Origin: Polyangiaceae bacterium
Lineage (GTDB): Bacteria; Myxococcota_A; Polyangia; Polyangiales; Polyangiaceae
NCBI GenBank assembly: GCA_025937785.1
Contig: JAICQQ010000015.1
Span: 1 to 64,000, forward strand
Reading direction: 5' to 3'
DNA: 64,000 nucleotides
The number at the start of each line of letters is the position of its first letter. The stretch's first letter is position 1. The position numbers and the translations under genes were made by a program. Shown in pieces: positions 1-58,648 of the stretch. Under the pieces are notes generated by a model. The model did no database searches, had not been told where the DNA came from, and saw only the letters and a list, made by a program, of their open reading frames with translations.

Positions 1-138
1 ATACACTTCCAATCCCTCATGATCGAGCCTCATGCTCCAGCCATCGGCCCCACCTCGGCATCGGTTGCGCTTCTTCGGGCACGGGCACGTTTACGTTCAC
101 GTTCACGGGGCCATCGTCCAATTCAGGGACAGGCCCTA
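1..138 (-). mobile_element. Right part of a TIR-bounded four-helix-bundle (IVS-protein-like) element, truncated by the window edge
   Basis: Near-identical to 58515-58648 (shared ...CACCTCGGCATCGGTTGCGCTTCTTCGGGCACGGGCACGTTTAC...AATTCAGGGACAGGCCC). Confidence 0.7.
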
Positions 139-1789: not shown

Positions 1790-2389
1790 ATGGACTTCAG
1801 CCTTCCGACGTGGCCGGCCCCGGAGCGAAATAAGGCACCCATCCTGCAGGTGCTGACGGAGCTTTTCCATCGGGGGCTGGTGCTCGAGATCGCCGCGGGT
1901 ACGGGACAACACGCCGTGCACTTCGCGGCCGGGCTGCCCGAAGTGACGTGGCAACCCAGTGAAAAAGATCCGGAGCTGCTCGACGTCCTCAGCGCGCGGG
2001 TGACGCAGGCGCGCCTACCCAATCTCAAGGCGCCCGTAGCGCTCGACGCCGCCTCAGCCACCTGGCCCGTCAACGCGGCCGAGGGTGTGTTCTGCGCCAA
2101 TCTGTTACACATCAGTGAGTGGAGCGTCGCCGAGGGCCTGTTCTCGGGCGCGCAGCGGGTGCTATCACCCGGTGCGCTGTTGATCACCTACGGGCCCTAC
2201 CGCAGCTCTGGCGTGCACACGTCTGCCAGCAATGCCGACTTCGATGCCTCGTTGCGGGCGCAGAACCCCACCTGGGGCGTACGAGACATCGACGATCTCA
2301 GCGCGTGCGCTCGAGAGCGCGGCTTCCGCCTCGCGGACACGCTCCGGATGCCTGCCAACAATTTCACCCTCGTGTGGCAACGACTCTGA
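1790..2389 (+). CDS. DUF938-type class I SAM-dependent methyltransferase
   Basis: LEIAAGTGQHAVHFAAGLPEVTWQPSEKDPE motif and full-length DUF938-like pattern. Confidence 0.85.
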   Translation: MDFSLPTWPAPERNKAPILQVLTELFHRGLVLEIAAGTGQHAVHFAAGLPEVTWQPSEKDPELLDVLSARVTQARLPNLKAPVALDAASATWPVNAAEGVFCANLLHISEWSVAEGLFSGAQRVLSPGALLITYGPYRSSGVHTSASNADFDASLRAQNPTWGVRDIDDLSACARERGFRLADTLRMPANNFTLVWQRL

Positions 2390-2456
2390 GTACGAGCGCT
2401 CGGATGCCACCCGTGGTCCACAGTGGGCTCTCGCGCCGGCCGTTCGGGGCAGCAGC

Positions 2457-3629
2457 GTGAAGCTCGCCGGACTTGGGGGGCTGGCCGCGCTCATCGGGTG
2501 TGTCACGGCTGTCGGGTGCGCGCGCTCCCGCGAGGACGACCTGGCCGCGCGGCGTTGCGCCAGCGGCGATCGCGTCGCTTGCGCGCGGGCCTGCGAGCAC
2601 GGGGTGCACGGCAAGGCGGGTTGCATGTCCGCCGTCGACGACAAGCATCCCACGCGACGCACGAGGATGCTGACGCTCGCGTGCAATGCCGAGCAGCCCG
2701 GCGCGTGCCTGCTCGCCGCGGAGGCCAGCATTGCGCTGGGTATCGGCAATGAGCATCAGTACCAGACGCTGCTGTCGCGTGCGTGCGAGCAGCGGGACGC
2801 GCGCGGCTGCGAGAAGCTCGGCGATTTTTGGTTGCTCGACTCGCTGGCGTCCGCGAAGGCCGCTTACCAAAAGGCTTGTCACCTCGAGCCGAGCCGTGCG
2901 CGCGTGTGCCGGGACGAGGTGGCCGAGCGCATCGCCGCCGTGGACCGCGAGCGAACCGCTTGCAAGCAGGACCAGCTCGCGGCCTGCGAACGACTCCTGA
3001 AGCTGACTGCGCTCCGGAACCACGACCTCGGCTACCAAGCCGCCGAAGCTGCGTGCCGCTTGCGGGGCTTGAGCGAACACTACCGTGGCACCGAGCTCAG
3101 GCATCCCTACAAGCTCAGGAAGCGTTTCGCGAGCTACGAGCCCTGCGGTCTGTTCGCGCTGGCGCGCGCGGCGGCCGCCCCGGGAGAGGTCACGGAGTTC
3201 CAGCGCGTGCCGCTGCCCGACCCGCCCGCAGCCGCGAAGGGTGAGCCGCGCGGGCGAGTGGCGTTGGGCGACGTCACGCTGCATTTCCGCGACGCCCCCA
3301 GCGTGCAGCCCGAGCAGGTCGCCGCGTTCAAGGCCGCTGTCGAAGCGCGCATCCGAGAACGCCTCGAGCTCGGCACGCGCTGCTACGACCGCTACCTGCG
3401 GACTCACCCGCATAGCCGCGGCGAGCTGGCTGCGCTCTTCATCATCGACAAGCTCGGCGAGCCCCTGGAGCTGCGCGCCTCCGGCGACTGGGGGGATCCC
3501 GAGCTGCGATCGTGCCTGCTGAGCGCTGCGATTCCGGAACGTTTCACCGGAATGAACACGGATCTCGGCAGCATCGCGCGCGTAGAAGCCAAGCTCGAGC
3601 TCACCCCGGCGCCTGCGGGCGCCCGCTGA
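2457..3629 (+). CDS. Hypothetical lipoprotein, Cys-rich N-terminal half, TonB/AgmX-like C-terminal region
   Basis: GTG start in frame of ORF 2232..3629; signal peptide VKLAGLGGLAALIGCVTAVGC; conserved C-terminal pattern FIIDKLGEPLELRASGDWGDPELRSCLLSAA. Confidence 0.6.
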   Translation: MKLAGLGGLAALIGCVTAVGCARSREDDLAARRCASGDRVACARACEHGVHGKAGCMSAVDDKHPTRRTRMLTLACNAEQPGACLLAAEASIALGIGNEHQYQTLLSRACEQRDARGCEKLGDFWLLDSLASAKAAYQKACHLEPSRARVCRDEVAERIAAVDRERTACKQDQLAACERLLKLTALRNHDLGYQAAEAACRLRGLSEHYRGTELRHPYKLRKRFASYEPCGLFALARAAAAPGEVTEFQRVPLPDPPAAAKGEPRGRVALGDVTLHFRDAPSVQPEQVAAFKAAVEARIRERLELGTRCYDRYLRTHPHSRGELAALFIIDKLGEPLELRASGDWGDPELRSCLLSAAIPERFTGMNTDLGSIARVEAKLELTPAPAGAR

Positions 3630-39766: not shown

Positions 39767-39869
39767 CTCTGGGTTGTGATGCGCCTCCAGTTGGACGAAG
39801 CGCGATGTGGTGAATCATCAGGCGGGCACGTGCACGTTTACGGGCCGGAACCATTCAGGAAAACAGGTT

Positions 39870-41135
39870 CTAGTCGGAGTCGGGCACGATGCCCCAGATG
39901 GGCACATCGTCGACGTTCATCGCCACGATGTTTTCACACGGGGCCGGCATCGCGCCCGTAGCCGTGGGTGTGCCTTCGAACGAGTAATCGTTGCCGCGCT
40001 GATATGGAGCGTTGCCGGCGATCGAGAACCGAATCGAACCCGTGTTCTGGCCGGGTCCCAGCGTGCCCGCAGAAAACCAGAAGGCCACCTCGTCGGTCGC
40101 GCTGGGGTCCTCGTATTCCGTGGCGAGCAGCTCCGCATCGAAGATGTCACAGGTGCCGCCCGTGAAATTGACCTGATTGCACATCACCTCGTCGACGCCG
40201 CTGCCCTCGGCGCTGTAGAAGTAGCGGAACCGGAAGCCTTCGAGCGAGATGGGCGCGCTGGTCGTGTTCCAGAGCTGTATGTCCACGACAGTCGCCTGCG
40301 GATTTTGATTACAGGCGCCCGCCGAGTTGCAAAGGCAGCGCACCACCACCGTGGGTTGGCAGCGTTCGCCGCTCGAGCAATCGAGGGTCCCGCAGTCGCT
40401 GTCGACGACACAGTGCTGGTCGTAGCCACAGGCTCGACAGTCCGGGCCGCCGCAGTCCGTGTCCGTCTCCAGCTCGTCGGGCACCCCGTTGCCGCAATGG
40501 TCGGCACGGCACCAACCGTCGTCGCACTGGCCCGATCGACATTGCGTGTCGTTGCCGCAGGGGCCCACGCCGCCACTGCCGCCGGACCCCGCGCTGGTAC
40601 CTCCGTTGCCGGCGTTGCCGCCGTTGCCGGCGCTGCCGGCGCTGCCGCCAGAGCCACCGTTCGTGGCCGAACCTCCCGTTCCCAGAGTGCCGCCAGTCCC
40701 TCCAGAGTCGGCACCCGCATCCGCGCCCTCTCCGGCGGAGCCTGCCAGGTTGCCGGAGCCAGCGCTGCCGCCGCCACCGCCGGAGCCATCGGTCGTGGTG
40801 CTCGCGCTGATCGACGAGCCAGCGTCGCTGTTCGAGGTGCCCGTGGAGGTGATTCCCCCCAGCGCAGTGGCCGTCGCGTCCAGCGTCGAGCCGGTGCCCG
40901 CGACCCCTCCGATCCCCGCCGCCGGCCCTTGGAACGTGTAGTCTGGGAACGCACACGCACCGACCACCCCGAGGGCCGTCACCGCAGGCGCGAGTTGGCG
41001 ACTACGACGCAAAAAGTGAACGAGGTTGGACAACGCGGGGGCGACGGCGAGAAAGAGGGCGAATGTACCAGGTTCTGCGCGGTCAAGCACGGCCTCAGCG
41101 TTCGCTGATGCCGGCAGCTCTCGACTTTTAACCAC
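39870..41135 (-). CDS. Gly/Ser-rich lipoprotein with C-terminal CBM3-like (cellulose-binding) domain
   Basis: VDIQLWNTTSAPISLEGFRFRYFYS...NFTGGTCDIFDAELLATEYEDPSATDEVAFWFSAGTLGPGQNTGSIRFSI. Confidence 0.65.
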   Translation of the reverse strand: MVKSRELPASANAEAVLDRAEPGTFALFLAVAPALSNLVHFLRRSRQLAPAVTALGVVGACAFPDYTFQGPAAGIGGVAGTGSTLDATATALGGITSTGTSNSDAGSSISASTTTDGSGGGGGSAGSGNLAGSAGEGADAGADSGGTGGTLGTGGSATNGGSGGSAGSAGNGGNAGNGGTSAGSGGSGGVGPCGNDTQCRSGQCDDGWCRADHCGNGVPDELETDTDCGGPDCRACGYDQHCVVDSDCGTLDCSSGERCQPTVVVRCLCNSAGACNQNPQATVVDIQLWNTTSAPISLEGFRFRYFYSAEGSGVDEVMCNQVNFTGGTCDIFDAELLATEYEDPSATDEVAFWFSAGTLGPGQNTGSIRFSIAGNAPYQRGNDYSFEGTPTATGAMPAPCENIVAMNVDDVPIWGIVPDSD

Positions 41136-51525: not shown

Positions 51526-54500
51526 TCATTTCGGGATCTTGATCGTACAGTTCGCGGAGCAGTTCGGGCCCGTGACAGGGTCGGCCGGGTCGCACTGCTC
51601 ACCAGGGTCCACCTTGCCGTCACCGCACCATGCTTCCCTGCGGCATTGGCTGCTGCAGCCGTCGCCGTTGGTCTTGTTGCCGTCGTCGCACTGCTCGCTG
51701 CCTTCCTTCTTGCCGTCGCCGCAGATCGGCTCCGTCCGACACGTCGAGCTGCAGCCGTCGCCCGACATGTTGTTGCCGTCGTCGCATTGTTCGGTGTAGG
51801 CGCCGCTCGCGTTCTGGTCGCGCACACCGTTGCCGCAGTACTCCCAGCGACACACGGCGCTGCAACCGTCGCCGTTCTGCGCCGGCAGTTGCCCGTCGTC
51901 GCACTCTTCCGTCGCTTCGCGGGTACCGTCACCGCACACCGTCTCGAGCTGGCAGGTCGCGTCGCAACCGTCACCGGCGGTCAGGTTGTCGTCATCGCAC
52001 TCTTCGCCGGGGTCGAAGACACCGTCTCCGCACTCACGCACGGTACAGTCGAGCCTGCAGTTGCCACCGGTCACCGGGTCGTTCGGATCACAGGCTTCGC
52101 CCGGATCGCGGGTGCCGTCGCCGCAGCTCTCCCAGCGACAGAGCGAGCTGCACCCGTCACCGTTGGTCGGGTTACCGTCGTCGCACTCTTCGCCCGGCTC
52201 CGGCTTGCCGTTGCCGCAGATGGACTCGTTGGTGCAGAACCTGCTGCAGCCGTCGTTGCTGGTCGAGTTGCCGTCGTCGCACTGTTCGCCGCGCGAGGCG
52301 TCCTTCACACCGTCGCCGCAGCGCGGAATCTGGCAGTCGCTGCGGCAGCCGTCGCTATCGTCGGCGTTGCCGTCATCGCACTGCTCACCCAGTTCGACGG
52401 CGCCGTTGCCGCAACCTTCGATACGGCAGTTCCACGAGCAACCGTCGTTGTCGAGGTTGTTGCCGTCGTCGCACTCTTCGGGCAAGTCGGGGATACCATC
52501 ACCGCAGAAGGTCTCCAGGCTGCAGACCGAGCTGCAACCGTCGCCGTCGTTCGCGTTGCCGTCGTCGCAGCCTTCGGCTGCATCGGCCACGCCGTCACCG
52601 CAGAGGGGCTCGGTGCAGTCGTTGCGACAACCATTGGTGTCGTTGCTATCGCCGTCGTCGCACGCCTCGCCGAAGTCCTCGACGCCATTACCGCACCTTT
52701 CGATGGCGCAGCTGTCGCTGCAGCCGTCGCCGTCGTTCTGGTTGCCGTCATCGCAGTCTTCGCCTGGGTCGATGGCGCCGTTGCCGCAACCCTCGGTCCT
52801 GCAATCCCACGAGCAATTGTCGCCCGAGGTATTGTCACCGTCGTCGCACTCTTCCCCGGCGTCGGGCACCCCGTCGCCGCAACGAGGCACGCTGCAATCA
52901 TTGCGACAACCGTTGGAATCGTCGTTGTCGCCGTCGTCGCACTCCTCGACACCTTCCTTGCGTCCGTCGCCACAGAACGGCTCGATCGTGCAACTGGCGC
53001 TGCAACTCTGGCCGCTCATGCCATTGGAGTCGCCGTTGTCGCACTCCTCACCCGCGTCGAGCACTCCATCGCCGCACTCGATGATGCTGCAGTTATCGCG
53101 ACAGTTCCCGCTCAACGCCGGGTCGCACTCCTCACCGCTGTCGAGCACACCGTTGCCGCAACCCTCGAGCACGCAGTCCCAGGAGCAGCCGTCACCAGAA
53201 ACCTGGCCACCGTCGTCGCACTCTTCGGTGCCCTGCACCTCGCCGTCACCGCAACTGGCTTCGACGACGCAACTCGAGCTGCAGCCGTCGCCGCTGCTCG
53301 TATTCGAGTCGTCGCATTGCTCGCCGGGGTCGATGTCGCCGTTACCACAACCGCAGCCTATCGTGACGAACACCGTCGCGGTTTCCTCTTCGTCGCCGCC
53401 CAAGAGCGCGGTGTAGTCGAAGCGATCGATGACGTTGCAGGTGCCGTCTTGTGGCGGCGTGTAGGTCACGCAGGACGAGGGACCACCGCAGGCGGCGGGG
53501 TCGTCGATGATGATGTTGACGGTACCGCCGTACTCGGTCTCGGTCACTCCGGTGATTTCCACGGTACCGTCGCGGCAGCTGCCTTCGCTCAGGGTGTCGT
53601 TCACGAGCACGTCGACCGGGACGTCGACGTCGCTGAGATCCGCGCGGCTGAAGTCATCGCGTGCGCGCGCCGGCGACCAGCAGTACGACACCGGCAAGTC
53701 CGCGCCGTTCTCGTCCGTCTGGCGGCACGTGGTGCCGGGGAGGCGCTCTTGGCAGTCCTCGTCGGTCTCACACGCCATCCCGAACAGGTAGCAGGGCTGC
53801 GAGGGGTTTCGCGAGCACACCACGAAACCGGAGCCGTCGGTGGCTGCCTCCGAGGCACCCGCCTCTTTGTCCCAGATCACGAGCGGGTCGCCGTTCACGT
53901 CCGTGGAACGAATCAACTCGCCCGGCATGGTGGAGCGCCCCCACGGATCGGGGTCGCTGGAGGTCGTCTCGTCGTCGAAGAAGCGGAACTCGAGCGAGCC
54001 CACGTTCGGGTCGCGTGTGAAGATACCCACCGAGCTGAATCCGGGCAGGCTGAACACCGAATCGAGCGGCATGTTGGCCGGCGCGATCCAGTCCGCGACC
54101 GACCCGCTCAAGTCGAAGCCGGTGATGGTGCTCGCGTCACGCTCGTACACCCTGAACCGGTCGCTGTTGTTCGAGGTGTTGAAGACGGCATAGAGCCGGC
54201 CGTCTTCGCCAACGGCGATTCCGTCTGCGTTCAGCACCGAGCTCGGCGGTTCCCCCGTGCTCGAGTCGAGCGTCGGGTTCTCCAAGTCGTCGACCAGGTA
54301 CAGGCGGTTATTGCCTTGCTTGGCGCTCAAGAACAGCCAGGTATCGGTGAACGGATCGTAAGTCGCGCCGTCCATGCCGCCAGCAGCGTAGGGCCAGGGA
54401 CGCGCGATTTCGCTGTCCCACGCAACATCGTCACAGGCACCATCGCCGAACGTGGCACCTGGCGGGCAGACTTCGCCGTCGGCCTGGCCGTCGATGTCCG

Positions 54501-57500
54501 GATGGTTGATGATGGTGCCGTCGAGGCACAGCTCCACCGGAGGCTGCGCGTCGTTCGACTTGAACGCCAGGAACGAGCGTGTGACGGGGTCGAACAGCAA
54601 CGCCTCGGGGTTCACGTTCGAGACGTTGAACTCGCGCACCGCCACCCACTCGATGGCCTTGTCGCACTCGCTCTCGGCACCGACGTCGCCGTCGCACTCG
54701 TAGAATGCCGTGATGCTGCACGCTTCGCAGCCGTCACCCGTGGCGCTGTTACCGTCGTCGCACTCTTCCAGATTGCCGAGCTTGCCGTCCCCACAGGTGG
54801 TAGCGGTGCAGGTATAAGCCCCGGCGGCGCCGGTGCACGCCCAACCGGGCACCCATTTGCAACTGCCGTCACAGCCGTTGACCGGACTCGCCCCTTCGTC
54901 ACACTCCTCGGTGCCGCCCACGATCCCATCGCCACAGGTGGTATCGATCACGCAGGCGGTGCACCCGTCGCCTCCGAGCGCATTACCGTCGTCACACTGC
55001 TCGCTGCCCCCGACGATACCGTCACCGCAGCTGTTGAGCACGCACGCTCCGCCCCGGCTCGGGCAATTCCAGTTCTTCTCGGTCCGGCAGAGCACGTTGC
55101 AGCCGTCGCCCGAGAGCTTGTTGCCGTCGTCACACTGCTCGGAGCCGGCGACCAGTCCGTCACCGCAGCCGTTCGAGTCGCAGGGTCCGCCGAGCTCGCA
55201 GTTGTAACCGGGCTCGAGCCGGCACGCGGCATCGCAGCCGTCACCGCTCGCGGTGTTGCCGTCGTCGCAGCTCTCTACGCCCTCGAGCTGGCTGTTACCG
55301 CACTGGTTACAAGCGATGCCGGGGATGGGACAAGACCAGCCGCTGTTGATGTTTTTACAGGTCGCGTTGCAACCATCGGCGCCGACGGTGTTGCCGTCGT
55401 CGCAGGCTTCACCCGACTCTTTGATGCGGTTGCCGCACTTTTCGCAGGGCAAGCCCACGCGCACACAGTCGTACGGAGCACCTTCCTCCTGGCAAGTCGC
55501 CGAACAACCGTCGCCACCGACGGCCGGATAAGCGCCGTCGTCGCACTCTTCACCTTGCGCAGCGTCGAGCCGCCCGTTGCCGCACGTCGTGCAGCCACCG
55601 GCCGAACAGAGCCAACCTTCTTCGATCTGCTTGCAGTCGTTGCGGCAGCCATCTCCGCTCGCGGTGTTGCCGTCGTCGCACACCTCACCGGTCTCGACGC
55701 TGCCATTGCCGCACTCGACGCAGGGGCCGCCGGCGCGGGGACACGACCAGTGAACTTGCACCGACTTGCAGTCGGCAGCGCAACCGGTACCGTTGGAGAC
55801 GCCCGCGTCGCACACCTCGGAACCTTCCACGGTGCCGTTGCCGCAGTTGTTGCAGGCGCCGCCCGTCGCAGGGCAGGTCCAGCCGCTCTGTTCCAAGCAC
55901 GAGACGCAGCCGTCGCCCGAGTTCGTGTTGCCGTCGTCACACTCCTCGTCACCCGCGACCACGCGGTTTCCGCAGCGGTCACAGACCGAGCGGTTGGGGC
56001 TGGTCGGTGACGCGAAGCAGCTCCACCCGGCCTCCTCCTGGCAGGCGTCGCAGCCGTCGCCCGACGCCGAGTTGGCGTCGTCGCACGCTTCCCCCGCGTC
56101 GAGCACGCCGTTGCCGCATTTGGTGCAGTTGCCGTCCGTGCAGATGAATCCGGGGTCGATCGCGCGGCAGTCCCCGCGGCAGCCGTCGCCGCTCGTCGTA
56201 TTACCGTCGTCGCACGTTTCGTGGGGGTCCTGCTGACCATCGCCGCAGAGTTCACAGTCGACGCCGGGCGCCGAGCAGTACCAATCGTCGTCGATGCTGA
56301 GGCAGTCCGCGGCGCAGCCCGTGCCGTTGCTCGCGCCCGCGTCGCAGACCTCGCGTCCCTCACGCACTCCGTTGCCGCAGTTGTTGCAGGGGATTCCGCC
56401 GGGCGCCGGGCACAGCCAACCATCCTCGAGCGTGCAGCTTTCGGTGCACCCGTCGCTCGCAGCGTTGACACCGTCGTCACATTCCTCCGCTGGACCCTTC
56501 AAGCCGTTGCCGCAGGTATCGCACGAGCTGCGGGAAGAACCCGCCGGCTCCGTGCAGTTCCAACCATCCTCGATCTCGCAGGTCGCCGAACAGCCGTCGC
56601 CCGCCTGGTTGTTGCGGTCATCGCACTCTTCGAGCGGGTTGTCGGCGTCATCGCCGATCTCACGCACGCCGTTGCCGCAGTTGAAGCAAGCCCCACCTTC
56701 TGCGGGGCAGGTCCAACCCGTCTCCGGCTGGCAGGTGCTGCTGCAGCCGTCGCGATCGTAGCGGTTGCCGTCGTCGCAAACTTCACCGCCCGACGCGGTG
56801 ACGACCGAGTCGCCGCACAGAATGCAGGGCTCGCCGGCTGCGGGGCAGATGGCGCCGGGTTCGATCTGACAGGTGGCGGAGCAGCCGTCGCCGTCGATCT
56901 GATTCTCGTCATCGCACTCCTCGCCGATCAGGGCACCCGACTCGATGCTGCCGTTGCCGCACGCGAGGCACGACTGCCCGGGCAGTGGGCAGGCCCAGGA
57001 TCCAGCCTCGATCGAGCAGCTCGCCGAACAGCCGTCGCCTACTTCCGTATTGCCGTCGTCGCACTCCTCGTGAAGGCCCTCAAAGGAACCCTCTTGCACA
57101 CTGTTGCCGCACGCATAGCAGGGCCGCCCGGGGACGACGCACAAGAACCCGACTTCCACCTCGGAGCAGTCGGCGCTGCAGCCGTCATCGTCCTCTTGAT
57201 TGCCATCGTCGCAAGCTTCGGAGCCCTCGAGGAACCCGTTGCCGCAGCCCTGGCATTGACCGCCGTCGGACGGGCAGCTGTAGCCGTCTTCGACCAAAGA
57301 GCAATTGAAGAGGCAGCCGTCTCCCGAGTAGCGGTTGCCGTCGTCACAGGCCTCGTGCGCATCTACGCTGCCGTCGCCGCACTGTTCGCACGGTTCGCCG
57401 GCGACTGGGCACGAAAACCCGGTATCTATCGAGGCGCAGTCCGCCGAGCAGCCGTCGCCGGCGTCGTTGTTCTCGTCGTCGCAGAGCTCCGCGCCTTCCA

Positions 57501-58041
57501 GGATGCCGTTGCCGCAATTGCTGCATTTTTGACCGGGCACGTCGCAGCTGAACCCGTCTTCGACGCGGCAGCGCGAGTCACAGCCGTCGCCGGCGTCGTC
57601 GTTGTCGTCGTCGCACTCTTCAGTGCTTTCTTTGACGCCGTTGCCGCACTGCTCGCACGCCGCCCCCGGCACGGGACACGAGAAGCCGTCCTCGATTCGG
57701 CACTCGGCCGTGCAGCCGTCGCCGTCCTCCTGATTCCCGTCGTCGCACTCTTCTCCGTCCGAGCCGTCGAGCTCCCCGTCACTGCAGCCCTCGAACGGAG
57801 GCGCACCGCCCGACCCGCCAGACCCCGTCGTGGTCGTGAGGTCGACCAAACCGGTGGTGCTGGTGTTGCCGCTGGGTGGCGCGCCGGCCCCACCTCCGAA
57901 TGCGGTGGTGGCCGAGCCATCGTTGCGGATGACTTGCGGATAGTCCTCGCACGCCACGGAAAACACCGCAAACAACGCGGCGGACATCAGCGACAGCAAA
58001 CGGATCGTGCACATCGGTGTGCGTGACGGAGGAAGGTGCAT
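51526..58041 (-). CDS. Giant DUF4215/Myxococcus cysteine-rich repeat lipoprotein with central propeller-like segment
   Basis: About 42 CG[ND]G...EECDDGN...GDGC...C repeats counted by eye; signal LLSLMSAALFAVFSVAC. Confidence 0.92.
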   Translation of the reverse strand: MHLPPSRTPMCTIRLLSLMSAALFAVFSVACEDYPQVIRNDGSATTAFGGGAGAPPSGNTSTTGLVDLTTTTGSGGSGGAPPFEGCSDGELDGSDGEECDDGNQEDGDGCTAECRIEDGFSCPVPGAACEQCGNGVKESTEECDDDNDDAGDGCDSRCRVEDGFSCDVPGQKCSNCGNGILEGAELCDDENNDAGDGCSADCASIDTGFSCPVAGEPCEQCGDGSVDAHEACDDGNRYSGDGCLFNCSLVEDGYSCPSDGGQCQGCGNGFLEGSEACDDGNQEDDDGCSADCSEVEVGFLCVVPGRPCYACGNSVQEGSFEGLHEECDDGNTEVGDGCSASCSIEAGSWACPLPGQSCLACGNGSIESGALIGEECDDENQIDGDGCSATCQIEPGAICPAAGEPCILCGDSVVTASGGEVCDDGNRYDRDGCSSTCQPETGWTCPAEGGACFNCGNGVREIGDDADNPLEECDDRNNQAGDGCSATCEIEDGWNCTEPAGSSRSSCDTCGNGLKGPAEECDDGVNAASDGCTESCTLEDGWLCPAPGGIPCNNCGNGVREGREVCDAGASNGTGCAADCLSIDDDWYCSAPGVDCELCGDGQQDPHETCDDGNTTSGDGCRGDCRAIDPGFICTDGNCTKCGNGVLDAGEACDDANSASGDGCDACQEEAGWSCFASPTSPNRSVCDRCGNRVVAGDEECDDGNTNSGDGCVSCLEQSGWTCPATGGACNNCGNGTVEGSEVCDAGVSNGTGCAADCKSVQVHWSCPRAGGPCVECGNGSVETGEVCDDGNTASGDGCRNDCKQIEEGWLCSAGGCTTCGNGRLDAAQGEECDDGAYPAVGGDGCSATCQEEGAPYDCVRVGLPCEKCGNRIKESGEACDDGNTVGADGCNATCKNINSGWSCPIPGIACNQCGNSQLEGVESCDDGNTASGDGCDAACRLEPGYNCELGGPCDSNGCGDGLVAGSEQCDDGNKLSGDGCNVLCRTEKNWNCPSRGGACVLNSCGDGIVGGSEQCDDGNALGGDGCTACVIDTTCGDGIVGGTEECDEGASPVNGCDGSCKWVPGWACTGAAGAYTCTATTCGDGKLGNLEECDDGNSATGDGCEACSITAFYECDGDVGAESECDKAIEWVAVREFNVSNVNPEALLFDPVTRSFLAFKSNDAQPPVELCLDGTIINHPDIDGQADGEVCPPGATFGDGACDDVAWDSEIARPWPYAAGGMDGATYDPFTDTWLFLSAKQGNNRLYLVDDLENPTLDSSTGEPPSSVLNADGIAVGEDGRLYAVFNTSNNSDRFRVYERDASTITGFDLSGSVADWIAPANMPLDSVFSLPGFSSVGIFTRDPNVGSLEFRFFDDETTSSDPDPWGRSTMPGELIRSTDVNGDPLVIWDKEAGASEAATDGSGFVVCSRNPSQPCYLFGMACETDEDCQERLPGTTCRQTDENGADLPVSYCWSPARARDDFSRADLSDVDVPVDVLVNDTLSEGSCRDGTVEITGVTETEYGGTVNIIIDDPAACGGPSSCVTYTPPQDGTCNVIDRFDYTALLGGDEEETATVFVTIGCGCGNGDIDPGEQCDDSNTSSGDGCSSSCVVEASCGDGEVQGTEECDDGGQVSGDGCSWDCVLEGCGNGVLDSGEECDPALSGNCRDNCSIIECGDGVLDAGEECDNGDSNGMSGQSCSASCTIEPFCGDGRKEGVEECDDGDNDDSNGCRNDCSVPRCGDGVPDAGEECDDGDNTSGDNCSWDCRTEGCGNGAIDPGEDCDDGNQNDGDGCSDSCAIERCGNGVEDFGEACDDGDSNDTNGCRNDCTEPLCGDGVADAAEGCDDGNANDGDGCSSVCSLETFCGDGIPDLPEECDDGNNLDNDGCSWNCRIEGCGNGAVELGEQCDDGNADDSDGCRSDCQIPRCGDGVKDASRGEQCDDGNSTSNDGCSRFCTNESICGNGKPEPGEECDDGNPTNGDGCSSLCRWESCGDGTRDPGEACDPNDPVTGGNCRLDCTVRECGDGVFDPGEECDDDNLTAGDGCDATCQLETVCGDGTREATEECDDGQLPAQNGDGCSAVCRWEYCGNGVRDQNASGAYTEQCDDGNNMSGDGCSSTCRTEPICGDGKKEGSEQCDDGNKTNGDGCSSQCRREAWCGDGKVDPGEQCDPADPVTGPNCSANCTIKIPK

Positions 58042-58055
58042 GTGGGTGGTGCCCC

Positions 58056-58520
58056 CTATTCAATCTGGGCGGATCGACGACGCTCGCCGGATAACCCGCG
58101 CGACCCCAAACGCCCACGCCTAACCCGCGTTAATAGCAGCGTCCCCAAAAATGATTCGCCTGAAAAGGTGCAGTACCTGAGCCCGGTTGCACGACGCGTG
58201 GCTGCGCCCGACACACCGCTCACCCGGGGCCTGTCCCTGAATTGGTCCGGCCCGTGAACGTGAACGTGAACGTGTGCGTGCCCGTGCCCGAGAAGTCGAG
58301 GAAAGAACTGTCCATGGCGGTCGAACTCCGTCGCCGAGCCTCTCGCGGTCAGGTAACAGCGTCGGTTGTCCGGCTTGGAGTGTTTCCCGGCGCCCTCGGC
58401 GATGTTCACAATCGACAAGGACGCCCGGGTGAACTGATCCGACAGGTGCCCTCGTCCTCGCGGTAGTCCTTCTAGGATCGCGTTCGCGATAACGAGAAAA
58501 TCCAACGCGACTTGATACAT
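58056..58520 (-). pseudogene. Four-helix-bundle / 23S rRNA intervening-sequence-protein-like ORF, probably frameshifted
   Basis: MYQVALDFLVIANAILEGLPRGRGHLSDQFTRASLSIVNIAEGAGKHSKPDNRRCYLTARGSATE matches the family pattern; downstream residues read into the TIR, with a better continuation in another frame (TAMDSSFLD). Confidence 0.65.
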
Positions 58521-58648
58521 TCCAATCCCTCCTGATCGAGCGTCATGCTCCAGCCATCCCCACCTCGGCATCGGTTGCGCTTCTTCGGGCACGGGCACGT
58601 TTACATTCACGTTTACGGAGCCATCATCCGAATTCAGGGACAGGCCCC
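58226..58648. mobile_element. TIR-bounded small element containing a four-helix-bundle (IVS-protein-like) ORF
   Basis: Left GGGGCCTGTCCCTGAATT...GTGCCCGTGCCCGAGAAG (58226-58294) and inverted right CTTCTTCGGGCACGGGCAC...AATTCAGGGACAGGCCCC (58580-58648); outer 18 bp identical. Confidence 0.7.

Follow-up and report, generated by a model that had tools for sequence, protein, structure and literature searches.

A transposase-less repeat unit in a myxobacterial genome is very probably a MITE-like remnant of an IS5-family insertion sequence carrying an S23 gene

A 423-bp unit in the window, the 64,000-nt stretch of myxobacterial DNA that was analysed, is very probably what remains of an IS5-family insertion sequence (IS; NF033580/IS5_3) with an S23 gene as passenger, reduced to a non-autonomous, MITE-like form. 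The full element appears to be ~1.4 kb long and to comprise an 18-22-bp terminal inverted repeat (TIR), a CGTGNN array, S23, convergent orfB and orfA, an inverted array and the second TIR, with orfA and orfB probably joined by programmed frameshifting over an A3-4G5-7 slippery run. Its insertion target is CTAG, and TA flanks it at both ends. Copies without a transposase would be moved in trans by the transposase of the full copies, because the TIRs are common to both, and the window copy could move only in this way, if at all, since its transposase is gone. This ties the puzzling S23 family to a recognisable transposable element, in which it seems to be retained under purifying selection.

The original prediction was of a unit framed by inverted repeats with a four-helix-bundle gene of the S23/IVP family, outside rRNA. 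The frame is real, as the outer ends are perfect (18/18 identical), and inside them lies a 33-nt inverted repeat (85%, 58259-58291/58585-58617) built of CGTGNN hexamers (Table 1). The unit is intergenic, located between ORFs of 2171 aa and 682 aa, and is not in 23S rRNA. The S23 gene was also borne out, though in truncated form: the ORF at 58056-58610 (- strand) matched PF05635 (23S-rRNA-IVP/S23) above the gathering score (E 9e-10) but only at profile positions 6-75 of 106. Alignment with 35 other ends revealed that one nucleotide is missing (GAA-TG for GAAGTG), which puts the ORF out of frame upstream of the conserved part. The C-terminus is a deletion junction (~58325/58326), with the ...ARGSATE codons fused to the orfA leader of the transposase-side end, and the protein therefore lacks its last helix. 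The N-terminal extension and the C-terminus that had been read as running into the TIRs are thus artefacts of a broken copy. The flanks of this copy (TCACCC/GGGG ... CCCC/CGTCAG) show neither TA nor a target duplication. Multiple copies had been noted within the same window, and a right-end fragment and a decayed end were found, a modest number.

Table 1. Features of the 423-bp unit and of related ends in the window
Feature	Position	Strand	Basis
MITE-like internal-deletion derivative of S23-carrying IS5-family element (very probable), 423 bp	58226..58648	.	ends shared by 12 further complete copies and by dozens of copies at contig ends
Left (transposase-side) TIR, GGGGCCTGTCCCTGAATT	58226..58243	+	perfect 18-bp inverted repeat; equivalent end in other copies leads to IS5 orfA
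CGTGNN hexamer array, transposase side	58254..58291	+	inverted repeat, direct repeat, alignment of copies
Leftover upstream of IS5 orfA (AAGTCGAGGAAAGAACTGTCCATGGCGGTCGAA), transposase ORF deleted	58290..58325	+	precedes orfA in L084, L085, L092; alignment
Truncated, frameshifted S23 (PF05635/TIGR02436) pseudogene, native ATG 58546-58544	58326..58546	-	PF05635 match; 36-right-end alignment
Inverted CGTGNN hexamer array, S23 side	58585..58617	-	inverted-repeat search
Right (S23-side) TIR	58631..58648	-	inverted-repeat search
Second copy (L035), right (S23-side) end only; contig begins within element; TA outside (CTAG)	1..137	-	
Decayed transposase-side end (GGCCGGAACCATTCAGGAAAACAGGTTCTAG)	39823..39871	-	blastn within window and sequence

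The host genome searched is a 9.4-Mb myxobacterial MAG (501 contigs, 95% completeness, 8.6% contamination). With at most one mismatch allowed, the end motif GGCCTGTCCCTGAAT was found 89 times genome-wide and its reversed-pattern control not once, while blastn of the unit against its own genome returned 96 pieces with coinciding ends, confirming the predicted multi-copy unit with matching boundaries. Many of the copies are at contig ends, as expected for a near-identical repeat that breaks short-read assembly. In alignments, homology stops abruptly at the TIRs, and beyond them the copies have unrelated flanks. Immediately outside the GGGCC core, TA was present at 53 of the 67 distinct ends sampled and CTAG at 47. 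Most of the 13 complete aligned copies have TA at both sides (for example L002, L007, L008, L010 and L028), and one (L009) has it at one side only. The proposed check for target duplications therefore came out in favour of the unit for most complete copies but not for the window copy itself. A plausible empty site, CGCTTTCCTAGTCTCAA (L084) versus CGCTTTCCTA/GGGCC (L040) and GGCCC/TAGTCTCAA (L090), is supportive evidence that depends on a repeated flank at contig ends.

The two ends of the unit lead to different genes. Transposase-side ends at contig edges continue into MVRQQLDERQWQKVRAVL..., an IS5-type orfA, and in four copies (L084, L085, L089 and L092) GGGCCTGTCCCTGAATT leads to orfA, such that the TIR is common to transposase-bearing copies and the window unit. 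The host genome has 20 IS5 transposase pieces. A composite query made from own-genome pieces of different copies matched the IS5 family transposase model NF033580 (E 7e-48) and PF13340 (E 4e-22), with a weak match to PF01609; the L154/L217 ORFs described below serve as an independent check. The opposite, S23-side ends continue into the start of S23, which was intact in 25 of 32 sampled cases, and three of the seven non-intact starts differ by missense changes only. All complete assembled host copies are short deletion derivatives with a broken S23. On contig C14, a TIR is followed by an intact S23 ORF (PF05635 E 4e-20, TIGR02436 E 8e-19) and then by a degenerate IS5 transposase convergent with it. 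Contigs break within the repeat, so the host assembly has no complete transposase-bearing copy, and relatives from other Polyangia were used in its place.

Complete relatives of ~1.4 kb in other Polyangia have the order TIR, hexamer array, S23, convergent orfB-orfA, array, TIR. The L154 element (= L217) has a perfect 22-bp TIR (AGCTAGGGCGTGTCCCTGAACG), CTAG at its ends and a 149-aa S23 ORF convergent with intact orfA and orfB. L221 is a complete element of the same kind, and L162 has kept both ends and S23 while its transposase is reduced to the last dozen codons. The same transposase clade is also found without S23, as a simple IS of ~845-856 bp (L219, L220, L227, L230 and L232; TIR CTAGGGCCTGTCCCTAAATT), of which the single-contig genome G032 has four copies and G011 has one; more distant simple ISs have CTAGGGGGTGTCCCTAGTTC ends. 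The transposase stop codon of the simple IS is within the right TIR (...CGAATTTAGGGACA), and in the S23-bearing IS the S23 gene is placed between the transposase stop and the TIR. A Kofleriaceae element (L173) has ends of the same kind, but here the transposase and S23 are in tandem rather than convergent, a separate 54-bp inverted array surrounds S23, and the transposase stop is followed by a decayed TIR-like stretch (CGAATCTAGGCACCTG). A tree of 37 S23 proteins, in which L200 and L214 diverge too far to be placed, groups the convergent IS-borne S23s together (support 99/95), with the L173 protein outside. As the L173 arrangement differs and its S23 falls outside the convergent group, the S23 gene would, on this evidence, have entered the IS clade at least twice.

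These features place the parent in the IS5 family (NF033580 transpos_IS5_3; subgroups IS5/IS427/IS1031), with a DDE transposase of the corresponding domains, orfA and orfB with a G-run between them, a short TIR common with the window unit, a TA/CTAG target and a length of 0.85 kb in the simple relatives. Unlike known members, the S23 element has a convergent S23 and inverted hexamer arrays inside its TIRs and is longer (1.4 kb). The window unit resembles IS-derived MITEs in being short, transposase-less and present in many copies with the TIRs of a transposase-bearing partner, but differs in retaining the remnant of a passenger protein gene and, in the window copy, in the absence of a target duplication. 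This last point, the absence of a complete transposase-bearing copy from the host assembly, the degenerate C14 transposase and the 8.6% contamination of the MAG count against identification as an IS5 remnant. The predicted mobility of the unit therefore holds insofar as the unit is discrete, TIR-bounded and probably moved in trans, yet the unit is not an independent IVP element but a deletion derivative of a larger IS.

Pairwise dN/dS values for the IS-borne S23 were 0.07-0.22, and 0.10-0.16 for the closest trio, in a comparison that covers a handful of sequences, several of the larger dS values being near saturation. These values point to purifying selection and indicate that the protein stayed functional as it spread from genus to genus.

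We then considered S23 loci more broadly. Among 77 loci found by similarity to one S23 and partly related by descent, 37 (48%) had a strong inverted repeat joining the 300-bp flanks, compared with 2% when flanks were mismatched and 0.3% for random intervals. In a second sample, collected with the PF05635 profile only from 12 genomes of Bacteroidota, Planctomycetota, Chloroflexota, Acidobacteriota, Actinomycetota and Verrucomicrobiota, such a repeat was present at 16 of 27 loci (59%; controls 0.14% and 0%). The arrays at the loci covered by these surveys (L122-L216 and L264-L293) have a period of 6 or 7 and as a rule match between the two sides, and their sequences differ between lineages.

An unrelated S23 element was found in G184 (L155, L156, L157, L164, L166, L234-L263 and L294-L323), a MAG labelled Klebsiella pneumoniae LH-05nov19-24, a species label that is doubtful because GC is 65% in the loci read. 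This element has GGGCGCGAT ends (GGGCGCGATGATCGAAAGCCG/GGGCGCGATCCCCACAAGCCG), which matched 117 times in 4.4 Mb (control 0), and its copies are ~560 bp with S23 and ~400 bp without. Perfect 9-bp duplications (ACCCCAGTG and AGGGTGGAT) flank two of the 15 complete copies. No transposase for the G184 element was found.

These observations bear on a reading in which S23 with its inverted arrays is itself the mobile unit, IVS-like and widespread, with IS5 as just one among several transposases to have become associated with it and S23 as a working part of its mobility or persistence. We regard this as a serious possibility, although the balance tips somewhat against it. The arrays around about half of the S23 genes in two samples, the G184 family without IS5 ends, the differently arrayed S23 in tandem with a same-type IS5 transposase in L173 and the purifying selection on S23 all speak for it. 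However, in Gemmatimonadota (L209, L213 and L214, around 2200-3000) S23 and a conserved inverted repeat of up to 86 bp are found at one conserved locus, apparently inherited vertically, so the arrays are no proof of recent movement. In addition, no S23 unit was seen moving without TIRs of a known type, and the arrays might arise from S23 loci instead of being transposon ends.

More tentative still is a broader proposal, that S23/IVP could be the hallmark of small cross-phylum elements, consisting of S23 between inverted 6-7-bp arrays, that have paired repeatedly with different transposases (an IS5 type with TA here and another type with 9-bp duplications in G184), with the 23S IVSs as rRNA-inserted members and with S23 working on the array hairpins. 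The inverted 6-7-bp arrays around about half of the S23 genes provide a new, testable handle on what the large, uncharacterised S23 family binds.

If instead one IS5 copy had taken up S23 neutrally, by chance, the ORF would now merely be decaying, as the broken S23 in every complete assembled host copy might suggest. The dN/dS values well under 1 across genera, the S23 start that is open in most sampled ends and the existence of a second IS5+S23 arrangement make such hitchhiking improbable.

Single-strand transposition of the RAYT/REP type had been put forward as the mobiliser on account of the ends, which are palindromic and hairpin-forming; a long hairpin is indeed predicted for RNA of the window unit (fold z -7.0), as expected for any long TIR. 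We consider this extremely unlikely, as the identical TIRs bound a DDE transposase of the IS5 family, TA/CTAG lies at both sides, and the suggested check for RAYT-type genes returned a single Y1_Tnp match in the genome, on C371, which does not figure among the places listed as bearing the element. A host repeat or segmental duplication, the latter named beforehand as refuting the original prediction, is as good as ruled out because homology past the TIRs was looked for and is absent, the flanks being unrelated and the ends sharp, and by the TA at the ends and the plausible empty site.

More than 30 years have passed since IVS elements with S23 genes became known. The IVS of Coxiella, 428 nt long, has an S23p ORF and a terminal stem of 28 bp (PMC4990558), and the window unit resembles it in its similar length and in having an S23 ORF within terminal inverted repeats that form a long stem, but is intergenic and multi-copy, with TIRs of transposase type and a TA target. 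An origin of IVSs by transposition, with a role of the ORF in mobility, was proposed decades ago and is described as unresolved (PMC4990558, citing Burgin 1990, Ralph & McClelland 1993). A search of the literature outside subscription journals revealed no report that connects S23 with an IS or with inverted arrays of short repeats. The IS-derived, MITE-like remnant that we favour thus belongs to a known class of element, an IS with a passenger gene or a MITE, and it is the S23 passenger and the link to IVS genes that are new as far as checked.

With respect to what S23 does in the element, our confidence is low. The S23 sequence matched only one solved structure, 2gsc, and a search for S23 in plasmids gave no match. 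PF05635 has a homologue in Avd of diversity-generating retroelements, which has a homologous four-helix-bundle fold (PMC10053308). Neither a reverse transcriptase nor template/variable repeats were noticed in the complete S23-bearing elements. By analogy with Avd, our working guess, weakly supported, is that S23 could serve as an accessory protein that binds nucleic acid, either DNA or RNA, at the array ends, which form hairpins.

We also noted other sequences near these elements. The 2171-aa ORF that adjoins the window unit (51526-58041, - strand) has many Cys-rich repeats (CGDG.../ECDDGN...) and looks like an ordinary large protein of secreted type. The host genome has a second IS5 subfamily (L106/L116 = G000:C306, L107, L110, L114 and L115) with a transposase ~45% identical; S23 was not nearby in the copy read, and relatives (L222-L224) end in CTAGGGGGTGTCCCTAG. 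Finally, S23-IS copies are inserted beside a further repeat, GTGTGGTGAATCTTCGATTCGCCACGAAAATAAACAACGCTTTC (L084, L093, L040, L112 and L031), and a related sequence, GTGGTGAATC, is found near position 39807 of the window (39780-39820).
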